Below, in pieces: positions 1-36,167 of a stretch of DNA of 36,167 nt. The DNA is from Dyella sp. ASV24 (lineage in GTDB: Bacteria; Pseudomonadota; Gammaproteobacteria; Xanthomonadales; Rhodanobacteraceae): contig NZ_JAELTQ010000037.1 in NCBI RefSeq assembly GCF_016428905.1, forward strand, positions 1-36,167, read 5' to 3'. Each line of letters opens with the position of its first letter. Position 1 is the stretch's first letter. The notes beneath the pieces were generated by a model. The model worked only from the letters and a program-made list of their open reading frames with translations, made no database searches and had not been told where the DNA came from. The position numbers were made by a program, and so were the translations under genes.

Positions 1-367
1 CCCGTATGAGGCGGCGGGCGGGTGGAGATAAGGCCCGCAGGGGAATCGGCAGGGATGCCGATTCCTTTTCGCCGGGGCAGGAGCCCCGTCGAAAAGCCCG
101 GAACCCGACCGCGTACCTATCGGGCTTTAGCCCGATAGGCGCCTCATCCGGGGGGCCCTTTCTTTGGGTTACTTTTCTTTGGGCAAGCAAAGAAAAGTGA
201 CTCGGCCTCCGGCAGGAGGTCGAAACGCCCGCTGCGTAAGCGGCCAGGTCACGATCACGCGACAACCAAGCGATACCGCTACTGGATCCCGGCCTGCGCC
301 GGGATGACGGCCAAAGATGAAGCAATAAGGCGAGCACCCACCCCTCTCTCCAAAAGGGAGAGGGAGC
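1..367 (+). repeat. Composite repeat element, copy A (right part only)
   Basis: This is the right half of the dispersed element that recurs at 11220-12320, 24480-25407, 31994-32927 and from 35447. It is cut by the window start. In order it holds a GGAATCGGCA/TGCCGATTCC hairpin (about 49-72), a CGGGGC/GCCCCG hairpin, a perfect 11-bp stem CCTATCGGGCT/AGCCCGATAGG (116-139), the long hairpin with arms ACTTTTCTTTG and CAAAGAAAAGT (about 171-200), the CCTCC-ggca-GGAGG hairpin (206-219), a REP-like ATCCCGGC/GCCGGGAT module (about 285-305) and a terminal GGGAGAGGGAG-type end. The 11-bp stem is complete only in this copy; others keep only GGGC/GCCC there. ORFs across it encode strings such as FLWVTFLWASKEK, which are translations of the hairpins and not proteins. 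Confidence 0.9.
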
Positions 368-641
368 AGAAATGCAGCACCCCGCTCTTACCCCATCGCC
401 TCGCCACGCCTAAGAACACCCCCACCAAACCGCGCTGCATCGCAACATCAACAAACACCCCAACCTCCCCAAACCCCGTCAACCAAAGAACCAAACAACC
501 AAAACCTCCAACCGCACCCGCACAAACCGTTACAACCGCACCCATCGCTCGACATCCCCGCCACTCTGGTGCATACGTATTCACTTCAATGAACCGGCGC
601 AGCCATCGCAGAATCGCCGGACTCTGAATTGGGGAGAGGCA
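368..641. other. A/C-rich non-coding flank and upstream region of the MFS gene
   Basis: No gene is supported here. On the + strand, 421-540 is about 85 percent A+C (18 of 120 bases are G or T by my count), quite unlike the rest of the window. This bias fades toward 600. A palindrome-like site TGcATACGTATtCA lies at 570-583 and could be an operator for the sugar transporter that follows. A Shine-Dalgarno GGGGAGAGG lies just before the ATG at 642. A minus-strand ORF through this stretch looks membrane-like only because G/T-rich codons encode Val, Gly, Leu, Phe and Cys. Confidence 0.6.
570..583. promoter_or_regulatory. Candidate operator, TGnATACGTATnCA palindrome
   Basis: The 8-bp core ATACGTAT is a perfect palindrome. 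With one mismatched pair it extends to 14 bp. It lies about 60 bp before the start of the sugar transporter, a usual place for a LacI-type or similar repressor site. No regulator gene is adjacent and no clear promoter hexamers could be assigned, so this is weak. Confidence 0.25.
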
Positions 642-2081
642 ATGAATTTGAATTCCACACCGGCGTCGAAGAACGCCGTTGATGACCTTGGGCAGCACGC
701 CACCGCGCGTGTCGTGCTCATCGCCGCCGCAGCAGCGCTAGGCGGTTTCCTGTTCGGTTTCGATACCGCCGTGATCAACGGTGCAGTCGATGCCGTGCGC
801 GGCAATTTCGGACTGGATGCGGCCCGCATCGGTTTCGCGGTGTCATGCGCACTGCTCGGCTCAGCAGCCGGTGCCTGGTATGCAGGCCCGCTAGCGGATC
901 GCGTGGGCCGTGTCCGTGCCATGCAGGTGGCCGCTCTGTTCCTCGCGTTGAGCGCGCTTGGTTCGGGCCTCGTCACTGGCGTGGGCAGCCTGGTTTTCTG
1001 GCGTCTCGTGGGTGGCATCGGCGTGGGCGTGGCGTCGGTGATCGCGCCGACCTACATCGCGGAGATCTCGCCGGCCGCTGTGCGCGGTCGACTGGGCTCA
1101 CTGCAGCAGCTCGCCATTGTGCTCGGTATTTTCGCTGCGCTGCTCAGCGATGCGTGGCTCGCAAGCACAGCCGGCGGCGCCGCGGAGAAGCTGTGGTTTG
1201 GCCTCGCCGCGTGGCGCTGGATGTTCCTCGTCGCCGTGGTACCCGCACTGATCTACGGCTCGCTGGTGCTGGGCGTGCCGGAGTCGCCGCGCCATCTGGT
1301 TGCCAAAGGTCGCCTCGCCGAAGCAAAGGACGTGCTGCGCCAGGTGCTGGACATGCACAGCGACACCGCACTGGACGCCAAGGTGAAGGACATCCAGGAC
1401 AGTCTGCATTCGGAGTACCGCCCTACGCTGAAAGATCTGCGCGGCCCGCGCCTGGGCCTGCTGCCCGTGGTGTGGATCGGCATTCTGCTGTCGGTGTTCC
1501 AGCAGTTCGTAGGCATCAACGTCATCTTTTATTACTCGTCCACGCTATGGCACTCCGTCGGCTTCAGCGAGAGCGATTCGTTCTCCATCACGGTCGCCAC
1601 CTCGGTGGTGAACGTACTGGTGACGCTGGTTGCCATCGCATTGGTGGATCGCATCGGCCGCAAGCCGCTGCTGGTGATCGGCTCGGCCGGCATGACCATC
1701 ACACTGGGCGCGATGGCGTGGTGTTTCTCGCAGGCTACCGGCAGCGGTGCCAACCTCAGCCTGCCGGCACCGTGGAATATGGTCGCGCTGGTCGCCGCCA
1801 ATGCCTATGTAGTGTTCTTTGGGCTGAGCTGGGGACCGATGGTGTGGGTGCTGCTGGGCGAGATGTTCCCCAACCGCATCCGTGCCATCGCACTGGCCGT
1901 TGCCGCCGCGGCGCAGTGGCTGGCTAACTTCGTGATCACCAGCACCTTCCCGGCGCTGTCCGAAGTGGGCCTGTCTTTTGCCTACGGTCTGTACGCCGCG
2001 TTCGCGCTGATCTCGCTGGTCTTCGTGCTGAAGGCGGTGCGCGAGACCAAGGGGATGGAGCTGGAGCAGATGCAGGGCTGA
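642..2081 (+). CDS. Sugar porter family MFS transporter
   Basis: 479-residue inner-membrane secondary transporter of the sugar porter family (GalP/XylE/AraE-like), likely a sugar:proton symporter. The family signatures are all present: GGFLFGFDTAVINGA at about 34-48 in TM1, DRVGR at 86-90 between TM2 and TM3, RGRLGS at about 148-153, PESPRHL at 213-219 after TM6, QQFVGINVIFYYS at about 287-299 in TM7 (sugar-binding segment), DRIGRKP at 336-342, and ETKG near the C-terminus. Length is normal for the family. The ATG follows GGGGAGAGG closely. It stands alone: repeat A lies upstream and a strong terminator follows. The sugar cannot be told from sequence; glucose, galactose or xylose are all possible. 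Family assignment is firm, substrate unknown. Confidence 0.93.
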   Translation: MNLNSTPASKNAVDDLGQHATARVVLIAAAAALGGFLFGFDTAVINGAVDAVRGNFGLDAARIGFAVSCALLGSAAGAWYAGPLADRVGRVRAMQVAALFLALSALGSGLVTGVGSLVFWRLVGGIGVGVASVIAPTYIAEISPAAVRGRLGSLQQLAIVLGIFAALLSDAWLASTAGGAAEKLWFGLAAWRWMFLVAVVPALIYGSLVLGVPESPRHLVAKGRLAEAKDVLRQVLDMHSDTALDAKVKDIQDSLHSEYRPTLKDLRGPRLGLLPVVWIGILLSVFQQFVGINVIFYYSSTLWHSVGFSESDSFSITVATSVVNVLVTLVAIALVDRIGRKPLLVIGSAGMTITLGAMAWCFSQATGSGANLSLPAPWNMVALVAANAYVVFFGLSWGPMVWVLLGEMFPNRIRAIALAVAAAAQWLANFVITSTFPALSEVGLSFAYGLYAAFALISLVFVLKAVRETKGMELEQMQG

Positions 2082-2103
2082 TCTGCTCGGCGCTGTAGAA
2101 GCG

Positions 2104-2134: not shown

Positions 2135-2149
2135 CGGCGTAGATATTTA

Positions 2150-2494: not shown

Positions 2495-2543
2495 TGCCGT
2501 AATCACCCGGCGAATGGTGCCGGGTTCGCAAAGGAGCTGCCCG

Positions 2544-5343: not shown

Positions 5344-5375
5344 GCTCACACCGTTCAACGGCAAGGAAACTCCAC

Positions 5376-10123: not shown

Positions 10124-10202
10124 ACGCGCCAGTGATGTTGTTGCAGCGAAAGCCGGTGCTAGGATCGAGCCCAATACGGCTTCGGTACGATTGCGGTCGA
10201 GC

Positions 10203-11189
10203 ATGCGCATTCTGGTTACGGGCAGTTCGGGTCATCTGGGCGAGGCGCTGGTGCGCACACTGCTCGATGACGGTCACGAGGTCATCGGGCTGGACGTAGC
10301 CGAGGGCCCTTACACCCACCGCGTGGGCTCCATCGCCGACCGAGCCTTTGTGAAACGCTGCATCGCTGGCGCTGCCACCGTGTTCCACCCGGCGACGCTG
10401 CACAAGCCACACGTCGCCACGCACGCCCGGCAGGATTTTCTCGACGTCAATCTCACCGGCACACTGAACCTGCTGGAAGAAGCTGTCGCCACCGGCGTGG
10501 AGTCCTTCGTCTACACCAGCACCACCAGCGTGTTCGGCGATGCACTCACCCCGCACACCGACGAGCCGGCGGCGTGGGTCACCGAAGACCTGGCACCCGT
10601 GCCCAAGAACATCTACGGCGTCACCAAGTCAGCCGCCGAGGACCTGTGCCAGTTGTTTCAGCGCAACCAGGGCCTGTCCACCATGGTGCTGCGCACGTCC
10701 CGCTTCTTCCCTGAAGAAGACGATGACCGCACGGTGCGCGCGCGTTACACCGACGACAACCTCAAGGCGAACGAGTACCTCCACCGCCGCGTAGATATCG
10801 AGGACGTGGTAAGCGCCCACCTGCTCGCCGCACGTCGCGCACCGATGCTGGGCTTTCGCCGCTACATCATCAGCGCCACCACGCCGTTTCTACCGGAAGA
10901 CCTGGCCGAGCTGCGCGTGCACGCACCGTTGGTGGTGCGTCGGCGCGTGCCTGGCTATGAAGCGATCTACGCGGAGCACGGGTGGAAGATGGCGCAGGGC
11001 ATCGATCGCGTGTACGTGAATCAGCGTGCGCGTGATGAATTGGGTTGGACGCCACGCCATGACTTTGGCGCGCTGTTGGCGCGATTGCAGGCGGGCGGGG
11101 ATATTCGCAGTCCGCTGGCTCGGGCGATTGGGTCCAAGGGGTATCACGCGGATGTGTTTAGTGATGGGCCTTATCCCGTCGAATCGTGA
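10203..11189 (+). CDS. NAD-dependent epimerase/dehydratase family protein (extended SDR)
   Basis: 328 residues from the ATG at 10203. The Rossmann nucleotide site is TGSSGHLG with Gly7, Gly10 and Gly13. The catalytic YxxxK is Tyr138-Lys142 (IYGVTKSAAED), with the Ser/Thr partner in YTSTTSVFG (104-112). It is therefore an extended short-chain dehydrogenase, probably acting on a nucleotide sugar or similar substrate; which one cannot be read from the sequence. From about 11030 onward the coding strand turns G/T-rich, with many codons ending in T or G, as the gene nears repeat B. The stop lies about 30 bases before that repeat. Little or no ribosome site is visible. Confidence 0.88.
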   Translation: MRILVTGSSGHLGEALVRTLLDDGHEVIGLDVAEGPYTHRVGSIADRAFVKRCIAGAATVFHPATLHKPHVATHARQDFLDVNLTGTLNLLEEAVATGVESFVYTSTTSVFGDALTPHTDEPAAWVTEDLAPVPKNIYGVTKSAAEDLCQLFQRNQGLSTMVLRTSRFFPEEDDDRTVRARYTDDNLKANEYLHRRVDIEDVVSAHLLAARRAPMLGFRRYIISATTPFLPEDLAELRVHAPLVVRRRVPGYEAIYAEHGWKMAQGIDRVYVNQRARDELGWTPRHDFGALLARLQAGGDIRSPLARAIGSKGYHADVFSDGPYPVES

Positions 11190-11219
11190 GTGGGGTTAGG
11201 CGCGGAGCGCACCGTTTTT

Positions 11220-12320
11220 CTCCCTCTCCCCTCCGGGCGACCCGAAGGTAGTCCCCTTTTGGGAGAGAGGGTTGGGGTGAGGGGTCAATCTAGCCCCACC
11301 GTTTCATCTTTAGCCGTCACCCCGGCGCACCCCGCAAAAGGGGGCAAGGGCCGGGGTCCAGTTTCGTCAGTGGTCGGCTGTCGCCTCATGCGCTACCGCG
11401 ATCTGGCCGCTTACGCAGCGGGCGTTTCGATCGTCTGCCGACGCTCGAGTCACTTTTCTTTTGCTGGCCCAAAAGATCCCACGGGGACTAGCTTCGCGTC
11501 GAAAGTAACCCAAAGAAAATGGCCGTAAGGCCAACGCCCGTAGCATCACGATGGGATAAGCCCGAACGGCTGAGGAATCGTGTGGCTTGGCAACCTTCGC
11601 CTCTACACAGCGGGTACGCCGAAGCGCTTCGCAACGCGCCATGGCGAAGAGGACTTAAAGCAGGCTTCGCTACGCTTCCCCATCGCTGAGGCTAGGGAGA
11701 GAGGACGCTACGCTTTCCTACCGCCGAGGCGAGGGAAAGGGAGCGCTACGCTTTCCCACCACTGAGGCTAGGGAAAGCAGACGCTACGCTTCCCGACCGG
11801 CGGGGAGAACTCGCCATCGAATGGCATCGCCTTTCTCTTCTGTCTTGGCTTTGTGCACTTAGAGCAAGAGCAACGCGACCTGCCGCGACGCGATGTGCAG
11901 CTCCGCTGCACGAGCCGTCCGCTTTCGCTTTTGATCTTCCGGGCCCCGTATGAGGCGGCGGGCGGGTGGAGATAAGGCCCGCAGGGGAATCGGCAGGGAT
12001 GCCGATTCCTTTTCGTCGGGGCAGGAGCCCCGTCGAAAAGCCCGGAACCCTCACGCGCACCTGGAGGGCGTAGCCCGGAAGGCGACTCATCCGGGGGGCC
12101 CTTTCTTTGGGTTACTTTTCTTTGGGCAAGCAAAGAAAAGTGACTCGGCCTCCGGCAGGAGGTCGAAACGCCCGCCGCGTAGGCGGCCAGATCGCGACCA
12201 CGCGACAACCAAGCGATACCGCTACTGGACCCCGGCCTGCGCCGGGGTGACGGTTTCATCGAAACCACAAGGCGAGCACCCACCCCTCACTCCAACCCTC
12301 TCCCCAAAGGGGAGAGGGAG
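11220..12320 (+). repeat. Composite repeat element, copy B (complete, about 1.1 kb)
   Basis: Starts with CTCCCTCTCCCC and ends with GGGGAGAGGGAG, so the ends are inverted relative to each other. The left half (REP-like module, GCGTTTCGATCGTCTGCCGA region, long TTTTCTTTTG hairpin) is a diverged reverse complement of the right half (TTTCTTTG hairpin, CCTCC-ggca-GGAGG hairpin at 12149-12162, ACCCCGGC/GCCGGGGT module). The centre carries CTACGCTTTCC-type tandem motifs (11670-11790), a GTGCAGC-tcc-GCTGCAC hairpin (about 11896-11912) and other stems. The left long hairpin is broken by about 26 extra bases (about 11471-11496) in one arm. ORFs over this stretch are not credible proteins. It lies between the convergent ends of the epimerase gene and a membrane-protein gene. 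Confidence 0.9.
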
Positions 12321-12430
12321 CCAAACTGAGGCGTTCCATGCAACTCCTACCCGCCCCAATGTCCCTTAAAACCTCGCCCCAATAACGCCGACAAAACCAC
12401 AACCAGCGACACATCGCGAAACAAAAAAAC

Positions 12431-20330: not shown

Positions 20331-20383
20331 CCGTGGCCACGCACCACGGTGAAGGGTGACGGCTTCCGCGGGGAGGTGCGTCG

Positions 20384-20470: not shown

Positions 20471-20495
20471 TGACCAAGCTTGGAGCGAAGTCGCC

Positions 20496-24418: not shown

Positions 24419-24479
24419 TCTGACGTTCGGCTCGGTTGTTGTCGCTGTAGTTGGTGTGTTGTCGCGAGCTGGCTCGCCT
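24419..24479. other. G/T-rich flank between nrdB and repeat C
   Basis: This short spacer is about 73 percent G+T on the + strand (24421-24480). I see no terminator hairpin of its own; the stems at the start of repeat C may end the nrd transcript. Confidence 0.5.
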
Positions 24480-25407
24480 GCCGCGGGCTTCCGCCCTCCT
24501 GCCGGAGGGCGGGTCACTTTTCTTTGCTTGCCCAAAGAAAAGTAACCCAAAGAAAGGGCACCCCGGATGAGGCGCCTTCCGGGCTACGCCCTCCAGGTAC
24601 GCGGTCGGGTTCCGGGCTTTTCGACGGGGCTCCTGCCCCGGCGAAAAGGAATCGGCATCCATGCCGATTCCCCTGCGGGCCTTCTCTCCACCCGCTCGCC
24701 GCCTCATACGGGGCCCGGAAGATCAAAAGCATCAAGCTCACGGCTCGTGCAGCTGCGCTGCACATCGCATCGCCGCAGGTCGTGTTGCTCCTGCCCTAGA
24801 GCAGAGAGCCAGTAGACAAAGCCAAGGCAGTAGACGGAGACGATGCCGTTCCGTGGTGAGTTCTCCACACCGGTTGGGAAGCCTCGCGTCCACTTCCTTA
24901 GCCTCTGCGATCGGGATGCGTAGCGAAGACCGCTTTAAGTCCTCTTCGCTTCGGCGCGTTGCGAAGCGTTTCGGTGTCCCCGCTGTGTAGAGGCGGAGGT
25001 TGCCCAACCCCACGATTCCTCAGCCGTTCGGGCTTATCCCCACGCCATGCAGAGCGCCTCAGCGCATCGGTGCCTTGCGGTGTAGCTGTGTTCCCCAATA
25101 AGGACGTTGCCTGTTTCCGAATACCTCGAACTCCAAGGCTTATATCCAACACGACGCTACCGGAGCTCTTAAGGCCATTTTCTTTGGGTTACTTTTCTTT
25201 TGGGCCAGCAAAAGAAAAGTGACTCGGCCTTCGGCAGAAGGTCGAAACGCCCGCTGCGTAAGCGGCCAGATCGCGGTAACGCTAGAACTGGGCGATACCG
25301 AAACTGGATCCCTGCCCTTGCCCCCTTTTGTGGGGTACGCAGGGATGACGGCCAAAGATGAAACCGCGAGGCGAGCACCCAACCCTCTCCCCAAAGGGGA
25401 GAGGGAA
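24480..25407 (-). repeat. Composite repeat element, copy C (inverted, left end trimmed)
   Basis: Same element as the others, in opposite orientation: the short-arm hairpin (ACTTTTCTTTG/CAAAGAAAAGT, about 24514-24543) now comes first and the long-arm hairpin (ACTTTTCTTTTG/CAAAAGAAAAGT, about 25190-25220) last. The outer CCCTCTCCCC module is missing on the left and present on the right (AACCCTCTCCCC to GAGGGA). Variant stems are informative: GCCCTCC-tgcc-GGAGGGC at 24493-24510 and CCTTC-ggca-GAAGG at 25228-25241 differ from CCTCC/GGAGG elsewhere by paired changes. The middle (24840-25150) has diverged more than other copies. It lies between the convergent ends of nrdB and the SPFH gene. ORFs across it are not credible. 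Confidence 0.88.
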
Positions 25408-25419
25408 GAAGAGCCCCCG

Positions 25420-26289
25420 TCACTTAACCGCCGACACACTCCCAAGATTCACAAAGGGCAACGCACTATTCCCCGTGTAAGTCGGCAAATGCCCATCCCA
25501 CTTCTCAATCGCCGACATCTGCACAATATTCGGGTTAGACCGCAACGCCTCACCCTTCAGCTCAATTGCTTTCGCCTCCGCCTCCGCAATAGTGATCTGA
25601 GCCTGAGCACGGCCCTGCGCTTCAGCCTCCACCTTCTCCGCTTCAGCCCTCGCCTGCGCCACTTCGTTCTGGCGCTGCTCCGCCATCTGCGTCGCCTGGA
25701 TCTTGGCGTTGATCGACTGCACCACGTTCTCCGGCAAGCGCAGTTCGCCCACCCAGTAGATCTTCTCCACGTCGATGCCAACGGCGGCGACCTCGTCGCT
25801 TACATCCTTCTGCACAGCTTCGATCAGGTTGGCCTTACCCTTGCCGTACACCGATTCGATATCCAGGCCGGATGCCTCTTTCACCAACGCATCGCGGATC
25901 ATGTTGCGCAGATAGACGTCCGTGATTTCATCGATACCTTTGCGGTATTTCTGGAAGATCAGCGTCACCTTTGATGGATCGATGTGATACGTGATGCCCA
26001 CATCCGCGTTCACCGTCAGGCCCTGCGCGGTCTGGAAACTGATGGATTCGTCAGTCGGTCGGCCTTCCGTCGGCGAACGGGTGAACGTGTAGGTCTGGGT
26101 GAAGGTGGGGAACGTATACATCTCATACCCCCAACCCACCCAGTAACGTCCCGGCGGCAGTTCCTGCAGCGAACCCTTGCCATCGCCATACATCTGGAAC
26201 TTCACACCGACATTGCCCGCCGGCACCTTGGAGCACGAAGCCAGCAACACGGCAGAGAGCGACAACGACAACATCCACAAGCGTTTCAT
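25420..26289 (-). CDS. SPFH/prohibitin-domain lipoprotein
   Basis: 289 residues. The start at 26289 follows AAGGAA; a longer frame reaching 26457 runs through the upstream small gene and is rejected. The lipobox LLAS-Cys19 marks a lipoprotein. Residues about 25-190 form an SPFH (band 7) domain: AGNVGVKFQMYGDGKG, GLTVNADVGITYHIDPSKV, YLRNMIRDALVKEASGLD, VAAVGIDVEKIYWVGELRLPENVVQSINAKI. Residues about 192-255 are an Ala/Glu-rich coiled coil, as in prohibitins and HflK/C. It should form membrane-bound oligomers; being a lipoprotein instead of TM-anchored is notable. Co-transcribed with the small membrane gene 5 bases upstream. The 3' end lies in A/C-rich (+ strand) DNA beside repeat C. Confidence 0.9.
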   Translation of the reverse strand: MKRLWMLSLSLSAVLLASCSKVPAGNVGVKFQMYGDGKGSLQELPPGRYWVGWGYEMYTFPTFTQTYTFTRSPTEGRPTDESISFQTAQGLTVNADVGITYHIDPSKVTLIFQKYRKGIDEITDVYLRNMIRDALVKEASGLDIESVYGKGKANLIEAVQKDVSDEVAAVGIDVEKIYWVGELRLPENVVQSINAKIQATQMAEQRQNEVAQARAEAEKVEAEAQGRAQAQITIAEAEAKAIELKGEALRSNPNIVQMSAIEKWDGHLPTYTGNSALPFVNLGSVSAVK

Positions 26290-26294
26290 GGCAA

Positions 26295-26492
26295 TTATTC
26301 CTTGTGAGTGAAACCGTGGCGCAGCAATAGATAGCCCCACGCCAACAGCACGATCAGCACGACCAGGCCCACGACCACGGCCAGCGTGCTGGCGGCCGAG
26401 ATCAGTTCTGGTCCGATGACACCGACGTACAGCACCAGGCAGAACACGAACGGCCACAGCCGTCGCGCCAGCCAGTCGACAAGCGTCTTCAT
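26295..26492 (-). CDS. Small two-helix membrane protein upstream of SPFH lipoprotein
   Basis: 65 residues from ATG 26492, with GGGGAAAA upstream. It has two hydrophobic helices, about 12-30 (LWPFVFCLVLYVGVIGPEL) and 36-58 (LAVVVGLVVLIVLLAWGYLLL), with a charged start (MKTLVDWLARR) and end (RHGFTHKE). No family is recognised. It ends 5 bases before the SPFH lipoprotein gene, so the two form an operon. Small membrane partners are common for SPFH proteins (NfeD with some prohibitins), but this one has no NfeD-like sequence. Confidence 0.75.
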   Translation of the reverse strand: MKTLVDWLARRLWPFVFCLVLYVGVIGPELISAASTLAVVVGLVVLIVLLAWGYLLLRHGFTHKE

Positions 26493-27242: not shown

Positions 27243-29276
27243 ATGATCGCCTTCGCTCCCCTCGCCCAGGAAGTGATTGCACGACTTGCGTGGACGTCCC
27301 TGCAGGCCAGCTTGCTGGTCGGCGCCGTGTGGCTGATCAATCGCCGGCTTCCGCGCCTTTCCTCCTCCACGCGCTCGCTGCTGTGGTGGCTGCTCAGCGT
27401 GCAATTACTGCTCGGCCTGTTGCTACCGACACCGGTAGCGCTGCCGTTGCTCTCGCCCGAACCCATAACGACTACGACGACGACGACAACCACGCGAACC
27501 GATGATCAGACGACCCTGGTCATGACCACGACCACGGCACCCGCCGAGCACCGCATTGCCAGCCTCGGCCAAAGCGGCACGCTTCCGACGGGAGCACTCG
27601 CCGTCGCCGCCGAGCCCACCGACGAAGGATCACCTGCGCCCGCGCATGCCATGTGGTCGCGCGTGCTGCCGATCGCCTTCGCCCTGTGGCTGGCCGGCGT
27701 GATCGTGCAGTTGATCGCCACGTGGCGTCACTGGCGAGAGGCACGGGCCGTCGTGCGTGCATCGCGCGTCCTGGACGATCCTGCGCTGCAGGCGCTGTGC
27801 AATGCGCAGGCACGCACCATGGGTCTGCGTCGATGCCCGTCGCTACGCGTATCCGATGCCATCCGTTCACCGCAGGTCAGCGGGCTGTGGCGGCCTGTCG
27901 TGCTGCTGCCGGCAGACCAGAATCTATCGACAGATGAGTCCGCTCTCGCACTGGCCCACGAACTTACCCACCTGCGTCGCGGCGATCTGTGGATGGGCTG
28001 GGCGCCTGGCATCGCGCAGCGGTTGTTCTTCTTCCATCCCATGGTGTCGTGGGCGATGCGCGAGTACGCGCTCAATCGCGAAGCCGCGTGCGACGCGCAG
28101 GTCGTGCACCAGCACGATGCCGCACCACAGGATTACGGCCGCCTGCTGTTGCGACTTGGCGTGGCGCACCCGCTGCACGCGGGCCTCGCCGGTGCTTCGC
28201 CGACGTTCCATAACCTGAAAAGGCGCCTGACCCTGCTGCAGCTGAGTGGTCAGGACACCACCTCGCGCCTCCGCAGCGGTCTGATCGTGGCGCTGGTGGC
28301 CGCCATCGGTGTGTTGCCTTACCGCGTAACGGAGGCAAAGCCCGATGCACCTTCGCCCGCCGCAACATCGAACGCCTGGGCCGTGCCGGCGACACCTGCT
28401 ACCCCAGCAACGCCGGCTACGCCTGCGACACCACCAACGCTGGCTACACCCGTGACACCACCCACACCGGTCACACCCGCGACGCCGCCCACGCCGGTGA
28501 CGCCCGTAACACCGCCCACACCCGCGACGCCCGCCACTCCACCGACGCCGGTGACGGAGACCTGGCGAAAGCCTCCACCGCTACCGGCCGTGCCGCCTGT
28601 GCCGAAGGCTCCGCCCGCGCCGCCGGCGCCACCCGTAACGGGGTTCAGCGCACACCACATTGATATCGACACGCACGACGGCGCTGCTTACGGATTTGCG
28701 CTGATCGACAAAGACACGGTGATCGTCAACGGCAGCGACATCGATCTGTCGACGGCAAAGAGCCTGCGTAGCAATACCTCACCACTGGTGATGTTCCGCC
28801 GCGGCGGCGACACCTACCTCATTCGCGACCAAGCCTATGTCGAGCGTGCCAAGGGTGCCTATGAGGGTGTTACTCAAGTAGCCCGTGAACAGGGACGGCT
28901 GAGCGGGGAGCAAGGGGAGCTCAGCGGAAAAATGGCCGGCATCGGCGCACGTGACAGCTCGCTGGCCGTACGCCTGAGCAACATCGCGCAGCGCGAGAGT
29001 GACATGCTCGCGCGCCAGGCGCTCCATCCGTCCAGCGATCGCGGTGATTCCGAACGAGCCGGTTTTGCCAAAGAGCGTGCCGAGATCGAGCGCGAGCAGG
29101 CCGGACTGGAGAAGGAGCAGCAGCAACTCGAACAGCAGCAACGCGCGCTGAGCGAGCGCCAACGTGAGCTGAGCCGCCGCCAGCAAGACGTGTCGACCAA
29201 GGCCACGCAACAGATGATCCATGTGCTGGACGACGCACTGGCCAAGGGCGACGCCCAGCCGATAGGCAACCGCTAA
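27243..29276 (+). CDS. M56 (BlaR1-like) membrane metallopeptidase without a penicillin sensor
   Basis: 677 residues. TM helices at about 13-33, 44-68, 140-160 and 345-360. Zinc site His239-Glu-Leu-Thr-His243 (LAHELTHLRRGD) with the distal Glu280 (NREAACDAQV) on the cytoplasmic side. A threonine run (about 76-85) lies in the first loop. After TM4 comes a Thr/Pro tract of ATP, VTP and PTP units (about 382-437), then a Pro-rich link, a small domain (470-535) and a Gln/Glu/Arg coiled coil (about 545-655). No Ser-x-x-Lys penicillin-binding domain is present, so the signal is not a beta-lactam through that route. It should sense something in the periplasm and cleave or inactivate the BlaI-type repressor. 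Confidence 0.9.
   Translation: MIAFAPLAQEVIARLAWTSLQASLLVGAVWLINRRLPRLSSSTRSLLWWLLSVQLLLGLLLPTPVALPLLSPEPITTTTTTTTTRTDDQTTLVMTTTTAPAEHRIASLGQSGTLPTGALAVAAEPTDEGSPAPAHAMWSRVLPIAFALWLAGVIVQLIATWRHWREARAVVRASRVLDDPALQALCNAQARTMGLRRCPSLRVSDAIRSPQVSGLWRPVVLLPADQNLSTDESALALAHELTHLRRGDLWMGWAPGIAQRLFFFHPMVSWAMREYALNREAACDAQVVHQHDAAPQDYGRLLLRLGVAHPLHAGLAGASPTFHNLKRRLTLLQLSGQDTTSRLRSGLIVALVAAIGVLPYRVTEAKPDAPSPAATSNAWAVPATPATPATPATPATPPTLATPVTPPTPVTPATPPTPVTPVTPPTPATPATPPTPVTETWRKPPPLPAVPPVPKAPPAPPAPPVTGFSAHHIDIDTHDGAAYGFALIDKDTVIVNGSDIDLSTAKSLRSNTSPLVMFRRGGDTYLIRDQAYVERAKGAYEGVTQVAREQGRLSGEQGELSGKMAGIGARDSSLAVRLSNIAQRESDMLARQALHPSSDRGDSERAGFAKERAEIEREQAGLEKEQQQLEQQQRALSERQRELSRRQQDVSTKATQQMIHVLDDALAKGDAQPIGNR
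28382..28560 (+). repeat. Thr/Pro-coding tandem repeats in the M56 gene
   Basis: The DNA is made of diverged 9- and 12-base units reading ATPATP, VTPPTP and similar, for about 55 codons. Such tracts change length by slippage. The encoded linker lies in the periplasm between the last membrane helix and the C-terminal domain. On the opposite strand it yields a Gly/Val-rich false ORF. Confidence 0.85.
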
Positions 29277-29409: not shown

Positions 29410-30711
29410 ATGCTCGGCTACTACGCAGCCACCGCCATCGGCAGTCTTCGCCGCAGCAAGGCGTTGGCCATCCTGATGATCCTGGTGATCGGGCTGGGCA
29501 TTGGCGCCAGCATGACCATGATCACCATCTTCCATGTGCTTTCCGGCGACCCGTTGCCGGGCCGCAGTGGGCAGCTCTATGCACCCGTCATCGACCCGCG
29601 CCCGCTCGCGCGCGATCACACGGAATCGCCGGAGCCCGACGGCAATTTCACCTGGCCCGATGCGATGAATCTGCTGCGTGCGAAGCGCGCCGATCGTCAG
29701 GCCGCCATGGCCGGCGGCGCCGTGCCGGTGCGACCTACGCAAAGCGGCGAGTTGCCGTTCTATGAAACCGGCCGATATGTCACCACGGATTTCTTCGCCA
29801 TGTTCCAGGTGCCGTTCACAGCGGGAAGCGGCTGGAGTCGAGAGGACGACGAAGCGCGTGCACGTGTGGTGGTACTCGGCAGCGATCTCAACCATAAACT
29901 GTTCGGCAATACCTCCGGTGTCGGACGCACGGTGCGCTTGAAAAACACTGACTTCCGAGTCATCGGCGTGGTGGACCACTGGAACCCGCAGCCGCAGTTC
30001 TATGCGCAGATCAATGGTCGCGTCTTCGGTAAGGCGGACCAGTTCTTCCTTCCCCTGCAAACCGCGCAGGAGCTGGAGCTGGATTTCAATGGCCGCTTTT
30101 CCTGCTGGGATAGTGGCGGCGATGCGCGCACCAGCGATCACTGCGTGTGGCTGCAGTTCTGGGTGCAACTGGATAGCACCAGCAAGGCACAGGCCTACCG
30201 CAACTTTCTGCTCAGCTACTGGCGCGACCAGCAAGCGCATGGGCGCATGCCGCGCCCGGTGAACGCTCAGCTCTACGGCCTGATGGAGTGGCTGGCGCAC
30301 GAACACGCCATCCCCGATGACCTGCGCCTGCAGTTGTCCCTATCACTGGGCTTCCTCGCCGTGTGCATGCTCAACGTGGTGGGTCTGCTGCTGGCAACCT
30401 TCCTGCGACGCAGTGGCGAAATCAGCGTGCGGCGCGCGCTGGGAGCACGCCGATGGGACATCTTCCTGCAACTGGGCGTGGAGTCGTGCGTGATCGGGGT
30501 GGCCGGCGGCCTGTTGGGACTCGGCATTGCATGCCTGGGCCTGTGGAGCGTGCGCCAGCGCCCTGACGGCTACGCACAACTCGCGCAGATGGACGTGAGC
30601 ATGTTGCTCGCGACATTCCTGCTGGCGCTGGTCGCCAGCGTTATCGCCGGCCTGTTGCCCGCATGGCGTGCCTGCCGCATTCCGCCCGCCCTCCAACTAA
30701 AGACGCAATGA
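29410..30711 (+). CDS. ABC transporter permease, MacB/FtsX type (first of two)
   Basis: 433 residues. TM1 at about 19-45 (ALAILMILVIGLGIGASMTMITIFHVL), a large periplasmic MacB_PCD-like domain of about 260 residues, then three helices at about 313-335, 358-383 and 397-420. FtsX-domain marks are RRSGEISVRRALGARRWDIFLQLGVES and LPAWRACRIPPALQLK. This is the MacB topology without the fused ATPase. Such permeases act as mechanotransmission units for efflux or lipoprotein/peptide handling, with a separate ATP-binding subunit. It overlaps the second permease (ATGA at 30708-30711). GGAGA precedes the ATG. Confidence 0.9.
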   Translation: MLGYYAATAIGSLRRSKALAILMILVIGLGIGASMTMITIFHVLSGDPLPGRSGQLYAPVIDPRPLARDHTESPEPDGNFTWPDAMNLLRAKRADRQAAMAGGAVPVRPTQSGELPFYETGRYVTTDFFAMFQVPFTAGSGWSREDDEARARVVVLGSDLNHKLFGNTSGVGRTVRLKNTDFRVIGVVDHWNPQPQFYAQINGRVFGKADQFFLPLQTAQELELDFNGRFSCWDSGGDARTSDHCVWLQFWVQLDSTSKAQAYRNFLLSYWRDQQAHGRMPRPVNAQLYGLMEWLAHEHAIPDDLRLQLSLSLGFLAVCMLNVVGLLLATFLRRSGEISVRRALGARRWDIFLQLGVESCVIGVAGGLLGLGIACLGLWSVRQRPDGYAQLAQMDVSMLLATFLLALVASVIAGLLPAWRACRIPPALQLKTQ

Positions 30712-30719
30712 GGCCCGCC

Positions 30720-31931
30720 ATGTCGCACTCCCCACTGATCGCCAGCCTGACGCGCCATAAGCTCACGGTGGGCCTGCTCGTGATGCAGGTGGCACTGACC
30801 TGCGCCATCGTCTGCAACGTCGCGTCCATCATCGGCCATCGTCTGGCCCAGATGCGCGCATCCAGCGGGGTCGTAGAAAACGAGCTCACACTGATCGAAA
30901 GCGTCAGCGTCGACGAATCCGCCAATCAACTGGCCAAGCACGACACCGACCTGGCCGCGCTGCGTGGAATTCCGGGCGTTCAGTCCGTCGCAGCGGTGGA
31001 CTCCCTTCCCCTGAGCGGCCGCAACTGGAGCAACGGCATCGCTTTCGAGCCCAACGGCCCCTCCATGACATCCGCCACGGCCTATAGCGGCACGCCGGAA
31101 GAGCTGCGCACCTTGGGTTTACGAATGGTCGCTGGCCGCCTGTTTCTGCCGGAGGAATACATCTCCCTCGACGCTGCTCACGATTGGACGGGCATCAATC
31201 GCGTGCCATCCACCATCATCTCGCGCTCACTCGCGGAGAAACTGTTCCCAGGAAAAGACCCCTTAGGCAAGGTGATCTACCCCGGCGACGGCCCCGTCCG
31301 CATCGTCGGCGTCGTTGAGCAGATGCTGCGACCCACACTGGATGAATCGGAGAGCAGCGGATACGTCACGCTCTTCCCCATGTTGCCCGATACGGCCAGC
31401 ATCACCTACGTGATGCGCAGCGCGCCGCAGGATCGCGACCGCATCCTCCAGCAAGCGAAGCGCGTGCTCACCTCGCTCGACAGCAATCGCGTACTACGCA
31501 ACCCGCAGACCTTCAGCGACCTTCGCGACAACTACTTCCGTCGCGACCGCACCATGATCTCCCTATTGTTGTCCGCCGCACTCGCGTTGTTGTTGGTCAC
31601 CGCGGCAGGCATCGCCGGCCTCGCCAGCTTCTGGGTACAACAGCGACGCCGATCCATCGGCATCCGCCGCGCGGTAGGCGCGACGCGGCAAGACATCCTG
31701 CGCTATTTCCAGACGGAGAACTTCGTGATCGTGGGAGCGGGCGTGGTGCTGGGCGTGGTGCTGGCGTATGGGCTCAACATGTTGTTGATGGAGCGGTATG
31801 CGCTGGAGCGGTTGCCTTGGTTTTATGTGCCGGCGGGGGCGTTGGTGTTGTGTTTGATTGGGCAAGCGGCGGTGTTGGGGCCAGCGTTGCGGGCGAGTAC
31901 GGTACCGCCGGTGGTGGCGACGAGGGGATAG
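30720..31931 (+). CDS. ABC transporter permease, MacB/FtsX type (second of two)
   Basis: 403 residues from ATG 30720, with GAGG at 30710-30713; ATG 30708, which overlaps the previous stop, is an equal alternative and suggests coupled translation. TM1 is at about 14-36 (VGLLVMQVALTCAIVCNVASIIG). A periplasmic domain follows, then helices at about 283-305, 340-362 and 370-392, with the FtsX signature RRRSIGIRRAVGATRQDILRYFQTEN. It pairs with the first permease to form a heterodimer. No ATPase gene is in this operon. The last 200 bases or so become strongly G/T-rich (31801-31860 about 80 percent) as the gene nears repeat D. Confidence 0.9.
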   Translation: MSHSPLIASLTRHKLTVGLLVMQVALTCAIVCNVASIIGHRLAQMRASSGVVENELTLIESVSVDESANQLAKHDTDLAALRGIPGVQSVAAVDSLPLSGRNWSNGIAFEPNGPSMTSATAYSGTPEELRTLGLRMVAGRLFLPEEYISLDAAHDWTGINRVPSTIISRSLAEKLFPGKDPLGKVIYPGDGPVRIVGVVEQMLRPTLDESESSGYVTLFPMLPDTASITYVMRSAPQDRDRILQQAKRVLTSLDSNRVLRNPQTFSDLRDNYFRRDRTMISLLLSAALALLLVTAAGIAGLASFWVQQRRRSIGIRRAVGATRQDILRYFQTENFVIVGAGVVLGVVLAYGLNMLLMERYALERLPWFYVPAGALVLCLIGQAAVLGPALRASTVPPVVATRG

Positions 31932-31993
31932 TTGGGGGTTTGTTTTCTTGCATGTGTCGTGAGTGCGGGTGGTTGTTGAACCTCGCGATTCTG
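31932..31993. other. G/T-rich flank between permease and repeat D
   Basis: About 80 percent G+T on the + strand through 31921-31980. No gene or separate terminator is seen. Confidence 0.5.
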
Positions 31994-32927
31994 CTCCCTC
32001 TCCCCTGTGGGGAGAGGGTTGGGGTGAGGGGGGGTGCTCGCCCTATGGTTTCGATGAAACCGTCATCCCGGCGAAGGCCGGGATCCAGAGCCTCGGTGTT
32101 TGATTGTCGCGTTACCGCGACTTGGCCGCTTACGCAGCGGGCGTTTCGATCGTCTGCCGACGCTCGAGTCACTTTTCTTTTGCTGGCCCAAAAGAAAAGT
32201 AACCCAAAGAAAATGGCCATAGAGCCAACGCCCGCAGCATGTCGTTGGGATAAGCCCGAACGGCTGAGGAATCGTGTGACTTGGTCAGCTTCGCCTCTAC
32301 ACAGCGGGTACGCCGAGGCGCTTCGCAACGCGCCATAGCGGAGAGGACTTAAAGCAGGCCGCGCTACGCTTCCCGACCGCTGTGGGGAGAACTTGCCACC
32401 GAACGGCATCGCTTTTTCTCTTCTGTCTTGGCTTTGTGTCTTAAAGCAGGAGCAACGCGATCTGCCGCGATGCGATGTGCAGCGCAGCTGCACGAGCCGT
32501 CCGTTGTCGCTTTTGATCTTCCGGGCCCCGTATGAGGCGGCGGGCGGGTGGAGAGAAGGCCCGCAGGGGAATCGGCAGGGATGCCGATTCCTTTTCGTCG
32601 GGGCAGGAGCCCCGTCGAAAAGCCCGGAACCCGCACGCGTACCTGGAGGGCGTAGCCCGGAAGGCGACTCATCCGGGGGGCCCTTTCTTTGGGTTACTTT
32701 TCTTTGGGCAAGCAAAGAAAAGTGACTCGGCCTCCGGCAGGAGGGCGAAACGCCCGCCGCGTAGGCGGCCCGATCGCGGTAACGCATGAGGCGACGACCA
32801 ACCATTGACGCCACTGGACCCCGGCCTGCGCCGGGGTGACGGTTTCATCGAAACCATAAGGCGAGCACCCGACCTTTACCCCCTTTTCGGGGCTCACCCC
32901 AACCCTCTCCCCGAAGGGGAGAGGGAG
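31994..32927 (+). repeat. Composite repeat element, copy D (complete, about 0.93 kb)
   Basis: The most intact copy. It begins CTCCCTCTCCCC and ends GGGGAGAGGGAG. From left: GGGGAGAGGGTTGGGGTGAGG end module, TTTCGATGAAACCGTCAT, REP-like ATCCCGGC module, CGTC-tgcc-GACG hairpin (32151-32162), long-arm hairpin (about 32169-32204), centre with GTGCAGC-gca-GCTGCAC, the GGAATCGGCA stem, short-arm hairpin, CCTCC-ggca-GGAGG (32731-32744), ACCCCGGC module, GGTTTCATCGAAACC and the end module in inverted form. The two halves are thus imperfect reverse complements around a unique centre. No transposase or RAYT gene is inside. It separates the convergent permease and S9 peptidase genes. The 346-codon minus-strand ORF through it is an artefact. 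Confidence 0.9.
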
Positions 32928-32993
32928 AAAAAGCGGTGAGGCTTCGATGCACCTCACCACTCGACACAACCACAAAAGACAAACCCCGCCCCA

Positions 32994-35330
32994 TTAATCC
33001 TTCGGCGGCTTCATCTCGTACTCCCTCGGCGGAACATCCCCCGCCAAATTACGCACAAAATAATCCCACCGCTTCCGCATCATGTAATTGCTCGCCGCAC
33101 CATACCCATGATGCGCATTCGGAATCAGCAGCAGATCAAAATCCTTGTTCGCTTTGATCAGCGCATCCACCACCAACAGCGTTTCGTACGGTGGCACGTT
33201 GTCGTCCATGGTGCCGTGAGCAAGCAGCAGATGGCCCTTGAGTCCGGCCACGTGATTCTGGTTGGCCTGGTCGTCGTAATTGCTCTTGCCATCCTTGCCT
33301 TCCACCAGCAAACCCTGCCACTTCTCCGCCCAGTCGTCTTCGTAGTTGCGGTTGTCGTGGTTGCCGCTTTCGGCAATGCCTACCTTGAACAGATCCGCGT
33401 AACGGAACATCGCTGTCACCGTGGCATTGCCGCCGCCGGAGTGGCCCCACATGCCCACACGGTCCATGTCGATCCAGGCATAACGCTTGCCCAGTTCCTT
33501 CAGGCCAGCGACCTGGTCGGGGATGGTGTTGTCGCCAATGTTGCCGAAGTACGCATCGTGAAAAGCCTTGGAGCGCCAGGGCGTGCCCATGCCGTCGATG
33601 GCGACCACGATAAAACCCAGCTCCGCCAGCGCCTGATGGTCGGAGCGTGCGGGATTGAAGCTGCGCGAGCCCACCGAGCCTGTCTGCGGACCGGGGTACA
33701 CATAGTCGACGATCGGGTACTTCCTCGACGGATCGAAATGGGTCGGTTCGAACATCAGGCCGTATAGCTCGGTCTTACCGTCGCGCGCCTTTACTGTGAA
33801 CGGCTCGGGCGCTTTCCAGCCAGTCGCCAGCAAGCGTGAGATATCGGCTTTAGCAATGGCGTTCACCACATGCCCGTCCTGCGCGCTACGCAGCACAGTG
33901 ATGGAGGGCGTGGTCGGCGTGGAATAGGCGTCCGCGAACAGACGTCCATCCGGCGACAGCGTGATGGTGTGGTCAGCCGGCTCCGGGGCGAGCAGCGTTG
34001 GCGTGCCGCCATCCAGGCTCACCTTGTAGAACTGCTGGTAATAGGGATCAACGCCCTTCTCACGACCGACGCCACGGAACCATAGCGTGCGCGCGGCGGC
34101 ATCGACCTTCAGCACCTCGGTGACGTTGCCTTCGCCGGTGGTGATGGCGTGCTTGAGCTTGCCATTGTCCAGATCGTACAGGTAGAGGTTGCCCCAATTA
34201 TTGCGCTCGCTAAACCAGACAACCTCGTGACTCGCCGGCAGGTATTGCCAGTTGACCTTGCCGTTGCCGCTCTCGTAGTAAGTGGGCACGCTTTCGTCGA
34301 ACACGGTACGCACGTCGCCGGTATGGATGTCCGCTACGCGGAACCAGGCCTGTTTGTGGTCGCGCGACGACGACACAAAGGCAAGTGAACTTCCGTCCGG
34401 CGCCCACTGCACATCGTCCCAACCGCCATCGCGCCCGCAGCTGACATCGTCACACAGGGTGGACCGATGCTGATCGGGCTCCATCTTCAGGCGCAGCACT
34501 TTGCGCGCATCGACGTCGACGATGACGCGTTCGATCATCGTCACGTCCTTGTCGCCCACCAGCGGGTACTTCCACTTCTCTACCTTGGGGTGGCCGACGT
34601 TGGTGCCGACCAGCACCATGTCGCCGGTCTTGCGCTGATCCTGCTGGAAGGTCGCGATGCGCTTTGAATCGGGTGACCACACCAGGATGGCCTTGTTGGT
34701 GTGCTTCCAACCCGCGTTGTCGGTGGCGTAACCGTAGTTCTCCACGCCATCGAGAGTGATCTGCGTCTCCTTGCCCGTTGCCGTGTCACGCAGCCACAGA
34801 TTCCAGTCCCGCACGAAAGCTTCCGAGTGCTTGTCTGGCGAGAGCACACCCGGCTCGTGACCCACGCCATCGACACTCTCGTCGCGGCCGGCGGTGCAAG
34901 TGGCATTACCCTTCATGTCGCACAGGTAGTGCTTGTCGCGCAGGTTTACGTCAAGACGGCCATCCGCTGTGGTCGTGAATCCTGAGATACCAAGCTTCGC
35001 TGCACTGACTGGCTTGTCGAGTGCCTTGCTCAGTGCAGCGGCAAGTCGCGCATGATCGAACGCGGGCTCTGTCTTGCCAGTTGCCGTGTCGAAGCGCACG
35101 AAGTGGTCACCACCCGCATCGTGGTCGCGATACCAGAAGTGCGTGTCGTCCAGCCAGGTCACCATCTGTACCGCGTGATCAACCAGCGGTGTCACGTTGT
35201 AACCCACGTAGCGCTCGGCGCGTGCGTAGTCCTCGGTGGTCAAGGTGCGGCTCTGTGCGGCCGCGCCCATCGAAAGCGCGCCCAGTGCCAGCGCGCCGGC
35301 AAGGCGCGCGCTGCGTGTGGTCAATGTCAT
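32994..35330 (-). CDS. S9 family peptidase, dipeptidyl peptidase IV-like
   Basis: 778 residues from ATG 35330, with GGGGAG upstream; a longer start at 35351 is not needed. Signal peptide 1-26 (MTLTTRSARLAGALALGALSMGAAAQ). The N-terminal two thirds is the DPP-IV beta-propeller (DTHFWYRDHDAGGDHFVRFD, LWLRDTATGKETQITLDG, VWSPDSKRIATFQQDQR). The C-terminal alpha/beta hydrolase has Ser631 in GHSGGG, Asp709 in HGTMDDNVP and His741 in NAHHGYG. It should remove dipeptides from the N-terminus of peptides in the periplasm or outside the cell; proline preference is likely but not proved. The 3' end lies in A/C-rich (+ strand) DNA next to repeat D. Confidence 0.95.
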   Translation of the reverse strand: MTLTTRSARLAGALALGALSMGAAAQSRTLTTEDYARAERYVGYNVTPLVDHAVQMVTWLDDTHFWYRDHDAGGDHFVRFDTATGKTEPAFDHARLAAALSKALDKPVSAAKLGISGFTTTADGRLDVNLRDKHYLCDMKGNATCTAGRDESVDGVGHEPGVLSPDKHSEAFVRDWNLWLRDTATGKETQITLDGVENYGYATDNAGWKHTNKAILVWSPDSKRIATFQQDQRKTGDMVLVGTNVGHPKVEKWKYPLVGDKDVTMIERVIVDVDARKVLRLKMEPDQHRSTLCDDVSCGRDGGWDDVQWAPDGSSLAFVSSSRDHKQAWFRVADIHTGDVRTVFDESVPTYYESGNGKVNWQYLPASHEVVWFSERNNWGNLYLYDLDNGKLKHAITTGEGNVTEVLKVDAAARTLWFRGVGREKGVDPYYQQFYKVSLDGGTPTLLAPEPADHTITLSPDGRLFADAYSTPTTPSITVLRSAQDGHVVNAIAKADISRLLATGWKAPEPFTVKARDGKTELYGLMFEPTHFDPSRKYPIVDYVYPGPQTGSVGSRSFNPARSDHQALAELGFIVVAIDGMGTPWRSKAFHDAYFGNIGDNTIPDQVAGLKELGKRYAWIDMDRVGMWGHSGGGNATVTAMFRYADLFKVGIAESGNHDNRNYEDDWAEKWQGLLVEGKDGKSNYDDQANQNHVAGLKGHLLLAHGTMDDNVPPYETLLVVDALIKANKDFDLLLIPNAHHGYGAASNYMMRKRWDYFVRNLAGDVPPREYEMKPPKD

Positions 35331-35446
35331 GCGTACTCCCCAGTGGATCATGGCGTGCCGGCAGGGTTGTTGTGTGCCGGACCTTTGATCGTAGTGTTAC
35401 TGATGGGTGGGGACGTATGCCATTGGTTTGGGTTGCCGCCGTTTTT
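35331..35446. other. Upstream region of the S9 peptidase gene, G/T-rich
   Basis: It should hold the S9 peptidase promoter, but no hexamers could be fixed. The + strand is about 67-74 percent G+T, the same sign as at the left side of every other repeat copy, even though here the nearby gene has its 5' end, not its 3' end, against the repeat. Confidence 0.5.
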
Positions 35447-36167
35447 GTCCCTATCCCCTTCGGGGAGGGGGTTGGGGGGAGGGGTAGGTGCTCGCCGCAC
35501 CGTTTCGATGAAACCGTCACCCCGGCGAAGGCCGGGGTCCAGTAGCGTCAGTGGTCGGCTGTCGCTTCGAGCGTTACGGCGACCTGGCCGCTTACGCAGC
35601 GGGCGTTTCGATCGTCTGCCGACGCTCGAGTCACTTTTCTTTTGCTGGCCCAAAAGAAAAGTAACCCAAAGAAAATGGCCGGAGAGCCAACGCCCGCAGC
35701 ATTACCTTGGGATAAGCCCGAACGGCTGAGGAATCGTGTGGCTTGGCAACCTCCACCTCTACACAGCGGGTACGCCGAAGCGCTTCGCAACGCGCCATAG
35801 CGGTGAGGACTTAAAGCAGGCTTCGCTACGCTTCCCTACCCCTGGGGCTAGAGAGAGAGGACGCTACGCTTTCCTACCGCCGAGGCGAAGTAAAGAGAGT
35901 GCTACGCTTCCCGACCGCTGTGGAAACTCGCCACCTAGTGGCGTCGCTTTTCTCTTCTGTCTTGGCTTTGAGCCATAGAGCAGGAGCAACGCGATCTGCC
36001 GCGACGCGATGTGCAGCTCCGCTGCACGAGCCGTCCGCCGTCGCTTTTGATCTTCCGGGCCCCGTATGAGGCGGCGGGCGGGTGGAGAGAAGGCCCGCAG
36101 GGGAATCGGCAGGGATGCCGATTCCTTTTCGTCGGGGCAGGAGCCCCGTCGAAAAGCCCGGAACCCG
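35447..36167 (+). repeat. Composite repeat element, copy E (left part, runs off the window)
   Basis: It has the end module (TCCCTATCCCCTTCGGGGAGGGGG), TTTCGATGAAACCGTCAC, the CCCCGGC/GCCGGGG module, CGTC-tgcc-GACG (35613-35624), the long-arm hairpin, a centre with CGCTACGCTT-type tandem motifs (about 35825-35915), GTGCAGC-tcc-GCTGCAC and the GGAATCGGCA stem, then ends at the window edge. Its last 107 bases match the first 107 of the window with two differences, so the sequence breaks within the repeat on both sides. No gene is present. Confidence 0.9.

Follow-up and report, generated by a model that had tools for sequence, protein, structure and literature searches.

We analyzed a stretch of 36,167 nucleotides (the window) from the soil bacterium Dyella sp. 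ASV24, which is contig C299 of a 5.63-Mb draft genome in 635 contigs (G000). It carries three whole copies (B, C, and D) of a composite repeat and two copies (A and E) that are cut by the window ends (Table 1). Each copy is a long interrupted inverted repeat of 0.9 to 1.1 kb in all, whose ends are imperfect inverted repeats with arms of a few hundred base pairs. On both sides of the repeat, the strand pointing into it is G/T-rich over ∼300 bp, so that the composition of the DNA is mirrored around the element.

From the outside to the inside, an arm consists of a CTCTCCCC hairpin unit, a CGTC-tagged palindrome, and a core with TTTCTTTGGGTTACTTTTCTTT; the hairpin unit is absent from the left end of copy C. 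The outer palindrome starts with CGTC and finishes with CCAG, and its pattern, CGTCATCCCGGC-N(4)-GCCGGGATCCAG, has 31 exact matches in G000 (18 + 13) and none for the reversed control. A 38-bp tandem repeat lies in the middle of the element, at 11668 to 11799 in copy B (∼3.5 copies) and at 35786 to 35962 in copy E. Copy B is predicted to fold into a single long hairpin of −328.4 kcal/mol with DNA parameters, a value that at such a length comes without a shuffle control. A search of the window with Rfam matched no element.

With up to two mismatches allowed, the arm core occurs 117 times in G000 (54 forward and 63 reverse; reversed control, 0), and both arms are present in 32 elements. The core was found in 18 of 18 relatives of the same genus, but 12 genomes from other genera had none; the exact 48-base arm is present in at least 80 records, all of them Dyella among the matches listed. 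Arm counts among the relatives (G001 to G018) range from 2 to 89 per genome, and the repeat has expanded recently in some species.

In the window, the seven compositional counts that the preliminary description had offered as the basis of the asymmetry were reproduced exactly (Table 1). Background windows equally extreme make up 0 to 0.43% of ∼19,900 overlapping windows of the same size (two-sided). The flanks beyond that list, to the left of B and to the right of C, hold the predicted sign as well.

Table 1. Copies of the composite repeat and their flanks in the window
Positions	Strand	Feature	Basis
1–366	+	Copy A, truncated by the window start to its right half	Repeat families D2, D6, D8, D11; outward gene-side flank is the right one
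367–640	+	Right flank of A, A+C-rich, reaching the sugar-transporter gene start (642)	421–540, A+C 0.850; Sugar_tr
10990–11219	+	Left flank of B, G+T-rich, including the epimerase gene 3′ end (gene 10191–11189)	11060–11210, G+T 0.649; Epimerase
11220–12319	+	Copy B, whole, inverted arms around a tandem-repeat middle	Repeat families, fold
12320–12620	+	Right flank of B, A+C-rich	12421–12480, A+C 0.900
24200–24441	+	Left flank of C, G+T-rich, including the ribonucleotide reductase small-chain gene 3′ end (23393–24418)	24421–24480, G+T 0.733; Ribonuc_red_sm
24442–25406	-	Copy C, whole, orientation opposite to B and D	Repeat families
25407–25600	+	Right flank of C, A+C-rich, entering the minus-strand Band 7 gene 3′ end (25420–26457)	25412–25560, A+C 0.644; Band_7
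31720–31993	+	Left flank of D, G+T-rich, including the final 210 bp of the gene for an FtsX/MacB-type permease (30663–31931)	31801–31860 and 31921–31980, G+T 0.800 each; FtsX
31994–32927	+	Copy D, whole	Repeat families
32928–33100	+	Right flank of D, A+C-rich, entering the minus-strand prolyl oligopeptidase/DPPIV-type gene 3′ end (32994–35351)	32941–33000, A+C 0.767; DPPIV_N, Peptidase_S9
35352–35449	+	Left flank of E, G+T-rich, adjoining the minus-strand prolyl oligopeptidase/DPPIV-type gene at its 5′ end	35401–35450, G+T 0.740
35450–36167	+	Copy E, truncated by the window end to its left part	Repeat families

The sole Rfam match, a cobalamin riboswitch (RF00174, 102.1 bits) at 20129 to 20342 on the plus strand, lies away from the elements, at the upstream end of the gene for the ribonucleotide reductase large chain (open reading frame [ORF] 20226 to 22985, codon-model start at 20495); the small-chain gene is next, at 23393. 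Control of an NrdAB-type reductase by B12 through this riboswitch is possible. A 27-bp tandem repeat of 6.4 units is also present at 28385 to 28556, within a long ORF (27243 to 29276).

Strand composition beside the repeat across the genome

The preliminary description had proposed a genome-wide profile in 50-bp bins aligned on the element ends. Of the 117 arms, 108 were analyzed, 6 of which were left out because their flank was shorter than 400 bp, and the remaining 102 show a mean asymmetry. From the element outward, the A+C content of the outward strand is 0.672, 0.681, 0.638, 0.611, 0.572, 0.545, 0.526, 0.522, and 0.511 per bin and then ∼0.49, compared to a mean of 0.483 (standard deviation, 0.074) for background 50-bp windows. 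Over the first 100 bp it is 0.68, with values above 0.5 in 98% of the arms, and the bias is gone by ∼450 bp. Element ends were placed by a terminal motif or else by a fixed 290-bp offset, and some placements are wrong; the end of copy A, for example, was misplaced at ∼641 by a chance motif match, so that its strongest stretch, 421 to 540, was not part of the analyzed flank. The mean asymmetry is diluted by errors of this kind.

Both base pairs take part in the bias, since in the first 50 bp of noncoding flanks the outward strand has A at 0.312 and T at 0.102, and C at 0.371 and G at 0.216. Across 22 elements, the strength on the left side shows no positive correlation with that on the right (rho = −0.33, P = 0.13). 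A difference in strength between the two arm types was considered and rejected (0.659, n = 41, versus 0.679, n = 40; P = 0.06).

A search that was blind to the repeat gave the same picture. It covered 974 kb, consisting of DNA chosen around elements and 10 background stretches of 20 kb, so its numbers are not whole-genome counts. It returned 83 extreme 120-bp segments, 71 of them within 800 bp of an arm and all 71 with the predicted sign. Three more lie beside a CTCTCCCC hairpin, again all with the predicted sign, and nine lie elsewhere. One of these nine (locus L046, 11865 to 12028) is at the end of contig C188 and consists of an adapter-like sequence, which we take to resemble a Nextera adapter, followed by a long poly-G run; this contig end is an assembly artifact.

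Two other Dyella species show the effect too. G002 has 22 extreme segments in 269 kb, 20 of which are near arm motifs, and G003 has 12 in 264 kb, 8 of which are near arm motifs; all 20 and all 8 have the predicted sign. As the G002 assembly is a single contig, the effect is not an artifact of the 635-contig draft. Elsewhere in the genus the bias is weaker: for 85 arms, drawn from 10 named species or strains of Dyella, where 65 of the ends were placed by the fixed offset, A+C is 0.578 in the first 50 bp and is above 0.5 over the first 150 bp in 82% of the arms. By title or abstract, we found no paper on such a bias or on Dyella repeats in the open-access literature.

Genes were called with a purpose-built simple codon model. 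The first outward gene points toward the element at 76 arms and in the opposite direction at 25, and 7 arms have none. As the preliminary description had stated, the sign is set by the element and not by gene direction, with noncoding A+C of 0.703 where the first gene reads inward (n = 48) and 0.689 where it reads outward (n = 20). Its claim that the bias enters coding ends also holds. Beside an element, the last 51 bp of genes have third-position G+T of 0.87 (n = 18) and 0.83 (n = 24), compared to 0.52 at 448 gene ends without element or hairpin; in the window, the value reaches 0.92 over the last 150 bp of the permease gene beside D. A general effect of gene ends was rejected on the basis of those 448 ends and of five ends with only a CTCTCCCC hairpin, at 0.53 to 0.56. 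Within 150 bp of the element, outward A+C in inward-reading genes is 0.80 to 0.87 at third, 0.57 to 0.67 at first, and 0.51 to 0.52 at second positions, the order expected of a genome-level bias filtered by protein constraint. Outward-reading genes show a weaker third-position shift, with 0.61 to 0.62 at 100 to 200 bp (17 to 18 arms) versus 0.47 to 0.49 beyond 400 bp; at 0 to 100 bp the value is only 0.52 to 0.55, with few arms (5 and 7).

The effect points to the composite element, because five short CGTC-palindrome elements without a core in G000 have unbiased flanks, whereas four composite copies fetched alongside are biased. A locus with two arms in the same direction (L077, 10080 to 10807) is unbiased. 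A general effect of palindromes was rejected, given these five core-less elements and the at most slight rise at CGTC palindromes in other genera (G071, 13; G089, 9; G096, 16) and in the Dyella genome G013 (6), with upstream G+T of 0.44 to 0.56 per 50 bp over 300 bp.

Substitutions on the branch to Dyella sp. ASV24

Codon alignments were made for genes that end at an element, with one genome for each of the three species (G000, G002, and G003). A change was assigned to the G000 branch at sites identical in G002 and G003 and was read on the coding strand, which here is the inward strand; sites were called near within 300 bp of the element and far beyond 600 bp. Among 54 flank genes, 34 had a match in G002 and 35 in G003; the aligned set comprised the inward-reading genes with a G003 match, one being omitted for a stop inside the G002 gene, and 26 of its 29 genes had all three species. 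The insertions are mostly common to G002; G003 mostly has no core there and often carries other repeat variants.

The preliminary description had suggested that 3′ single strands are left exposed when the hairpins break and that their A and C bases are then deaminated, which would yield exactly this pattern, to be seen as A-to-G and C-to-T changes at orthologous loci. Both classes do increase near elements, with third-position near/far ratios of 3.72 for A-to-G and 1.72 for C-to-T, but the increase is not confined to them. C-to-G rises 3.83-fold, and the reverse changes fall, with ratios of 0.32 for T-to-C, 0.29 for G-to-A, and 0.15 for G-to-C. The within-class changes G-to-T (1.43, 11 changes) and C-to-A (2.13, 5 changes) have intervals that span 1. 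When pooled, changes from A or C to G or T number 116 within 300 bp against 52.1 expected from the far rates (ratio, 2.23; bootstrap interval, 1.81 to 2.79), and reverse changes number 37 against 142.2 (0.26; 0.17 to 0.38). Within-class changes number 19 against 14.3 (1.33; 0.62 to 2.42), a small count that nevertheless carries the distinction between models. Favored changes raised, reverse changes lowered, and within-class changes at this level are the signature of a fixation bias, and a mutational process that exchanges the strands leaves the same signature.

Model fits agree with these counts. For the near sites on the G000 branch, the Akaike information criterion (AIC) is 1206.1 for added deamination (three parameters), 1141.3 for a fixation bias (two parameters), and 1137.6 and 1136.1 for strand-exchange mutation (two parameters), or 1128.3 when the latter is restricted to amino-keto classes; a fixation bias fitted per class (four parameters) gives 1130.5. 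Fourfold sites keep the order, with 619.1 for deamination and 585.2 for fixation bias. The fitted fixation bias has a scaled coefficient S of 2.06 and a rate scale of 1.00, which predicts an equilibrium G+T of ∼0.89, compared to 0.84 to 0.87 observed at 50 to 150 bp. Added deamination thus fits far worse than either a bias in the retention of changes or inheritance from a single strand. Since reverse changes fall to about a quarter, deamination as the sole cause is excluded on the G000 branch; in G002 (AIC, 1316.9, versus 1302.1 for fixation bias) it is disfavored.

Older insertions may carry more bias, as G+T over the last 50 codons in G000 is 0.76 where G002 has no core within 700 bp (n = 8) and 0.85 otherwise (n = 22), a difference that is suggestive only (P = 0.07).

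Candidate causes of the bias

The reading that we tentatively favor is that, at a site of recurrent breakage or stalling, G/T-rich 3′ strands suited to RecA are promoted by selection or by biased conversion. Each copy would be a point of recurrent DNA breakage, stalling, or single-strandedness, and on both sides the strand running 5′ to 3′ into the element would become a 3′-ended single strand held by RecA. Over ∼300 bp, changes gaining G or T on the inward strand would be kept more often and changes gaining A or C less often, as under a scaled coefficient of about 2 close to the element, without a raised mutation supply. G/T-rich 3′ strands would rescue the site more often, either through selection on repair success or through biased conversion. 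The part of the earlier proposal that concerns 3′ single strands is compatible with the data, since the G/T-rich strand is the one that would be 3′ ended on breakage, while the deamination that it placed on that strand is not supported as the cause of exactly this pattern. RecA filaments are most stable on TGG and least stable on CCA repeats, according to the available part of one study (PMC3763553), and this is the same keto-amino contrast as in the flanks. A broader form of the proposal is unlikely. It would make the repeats standing sites of breakage or fork convergence with telomere-like G/T-rich 3′ strands, with RecA-mediated selection or conversion acting on strand composition over ∼300 bp on both sides at dozens of sites and overriding codon use in coding sequence.

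A Chi-like motif was considered and rejected, because the excess of GGTGG-type words near elements is equaled in far coding sequence and on both background strands. No flank-specific word was enriched beyond coding DNA elsewhere and no Chi-like signal was seen, which favors a compositional preference over a signal of the Chi type. RecB, the one RecBCD subunit searched for, is present in G000 (1,013 bits against a model cutoff of 696).

Several points weigh against the RecA-based reading. On the G000 branch, the fixation bias is slightly outperformed in AIC by the strand-exchange models and by an additive model that combines extra changes in all A/C-to-G/T classes with a rate drop to 0.39 (four parameters; AIC, 1135.7), although such a general drop has no counterpart in the within-class counts. 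In G002 the bias is weaker (S = 0.79), and at its fourfold sites fixation bias (541.6) ties with deamination (541.4). RecBCD normally resects to Chi over kilobases, beyond the 300-bp reach seen here. Two arms without a detected partner (L060, 7525, and L076, 8021) are nevertheless biased outward (0.66 and 0.64). Finally, SbcC, of the best-known hairpin nuclease SbcCD, is probably absent from G000, judging from model searches of the genome, in which only two matches of ∼50 residues and 19 bits were found (SbcD was not searched). No match exceeded the cutoff in the 31 genomes searched; the best among 19 genomes of the genus had 38.7 bits (G006), and G026, from another family, had two pieces of 219 to 234 bits. 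All 14 control genomes gave matches, but only that of Escherichia coli passed the cutoff, so the cutoff alone proves little.

A somewhat unlikely alternative is inheritance from one strand, in which the 5′-ended outward strand is removed again and again and resynthesized with the inward strand as template, so that outward errors are erased and inward errors pass to both strands; the total amount of change would stay similar and move to one strand. The strand-exchange fits represent this process, and they equal or slightly better the fixation bias in G000 and give AIC values of 1296.9, 1308.4, and 1300.1 in G002 against 1302.1. This would require that about three-quarters of outward-strand errors be erased (fitted values, 0.76 to 0.79), i.e., processing in most cell cycles, and the expected opposite shift of G-to-T and C-to-A is not seen, on 11 and 5 changes. 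We consider the addition of C-to-T and A-to-G changes by deamination of exposed 3′ strands very improbable. It has a precedent in vertebrate mitochondrial DNA, where A and C on the long-exposed strand are affected (available text of PMC3269012), it accounts for the two raised transition classes, and it draws level at G002 fourfold sites; it predicts neither the fall of the three reverse classes nor the rise of C-to-G, and its AIC of 1206.1 compares with 1128 to 1141. The bias could also predate the repeats, if these sit at a preexisting switch of strand composition or at the site of an older element. G003 gene ends without a detected nearby repeat do have third-position G+T of 0.58 to 0.68 versus 0.52 at element-free ends in G000, either from lost elements or from such a position effect; eleven FtsX orthologues without an arm core still have 0.66 to 0.88 in the last 150 bp; and a G003 site (L215 near 7105; C21, a 30.9-kb contig) has an extreme G/T-rich gene end with no arm motif in the examined stretch, possibly the scar of a lost element. 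However, the G000 branch continues to gain bias, and where inspection of 340 bp by eye suggested an empty G003 flank (five cases), G003 has 0.60 to 0.68 and G000 has 0.80 to 0.96. The 448 element-free gene ends, convergent or not, show no bias, and most other relatives carry different repeats at these loci, all of which makes an insertion preference or position effect improbable.

Selection on RNA is a decidedly improbable explanation. Outward transcripts would be kept A/C-rich and unstructured, for example to load Rho and stop transcription leaving the element, which would agree with an outward strand that is C-rich and G-poor. The bias is, however, equally strong in flanks leading into outward-reading genes, and the noncoding shift of A over T is as large as that of C over G, whereas Rho prefers pyrimidine-C pairs. 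A weak test found no sigma-70-type promoter match in copy D. Little credence can be given to local fork convergence either, according to which the element acts as a small replication terminus and both flanks look like leading strand. The G/T-rich inward strands share the leading-strand sign (positive GC skew on one replichore), and origin-proximal flanks are more biased than distal ones (0.703, n = 18, versus 0.630, n = 15; P = 0.0002), with the origin located by the skew values of 20 stretches of G002 and G000 gene order assumed to be conserved. When the origin was instead assumed at G002 coordinate 1, the distal flanks were higher (P = 0.015), and the comparison was redone after placing it from skew. 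A like difference is found at third positions in the interior of these genes (0.541 versus 0.428), so that much of the contrast is ordinary leading-strand skew added on top, and the bias is on both sides, above 0.5 on each in 20 of the 22 elements with both flanks analyzed.

Related systems and significance

The outer palindrome resembles CGTC-tagged repetitive extragenic palindromic sequences (REPs), such as dRS3 in Neisseria, in starting with CGTC and ending with CCAG, which fits their definition by a CGTC tag and a CCA-type tail (PMC3733652). Order-wide matches to the palindrome include head-to-head pairs, and REPs of this class are described as head-to-head dimers between convergent or codirectional genes, those of Neisseria lying in mosaic intergenic regions (PMC3733652). 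A whole REP, however, measures 20 to 40 bp, whereas in the Dyella composite of 0.9 to 1.1 kb the palindrome is one layer beside the element's own core and middle. The available part of that paper (PMC3733652) describes no strand bias, and short CGTC dimers in G000 and palindromes in three other genera have little or none.

The sign flip at a point, with an excess of G and T on one strand, recalls the GC and TA skews of replication at origin and terminus, but its reach is ∼300 bp instead of megabases and it recurs at dozens of sites on both replichores and on both sides. GC-biased gene conversion at recombination hot spots is likewise a local, distance-limited fixation bias; the Dyella bias is directional and favors keto over amino bases on one strand, not G:C over A:T. 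The G/T-rich heavy strand of vertebrate mitochondria shares the A-to-G and C-to-T changes on one strand (PMC3269012, available text), whereas in Dyella C-to-G also rises and reverse changes are rarer than in other parts of the genes concerned. In E. coli, SbcCD turns an interrupted palindrome of 246 bp into a site of two-ended breaks, and RecA coats 3′ strands on both sides, as far as the available text goes (PMC4125073). The Dyella element is also a long interrupted palindrome, known here from sequence alone, and it differs in the probable absence of SbcC and in having no flank-specific Chi-like word. With SbcC probably absent and RecB present, the E. coli route of palindrome breakage, by SbcCD, RecBCD, and RecA, is not simply transferable.

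In Dyella, the bias confounds analyses of codon usage, skew, and horizontal transfer. A noncoding repeat that reshapes the strand composition of the DNA beside it, gene ends included, and does so measurably in three species would provide a natural assay for the processing of long inverted repeats in bacteria, and at defined sites it could tell mutation apart from selection or biased conversion. Should RecA prove responsible, its preference for TG-rich strands would acquire an in vivo, evolutionary meaning.

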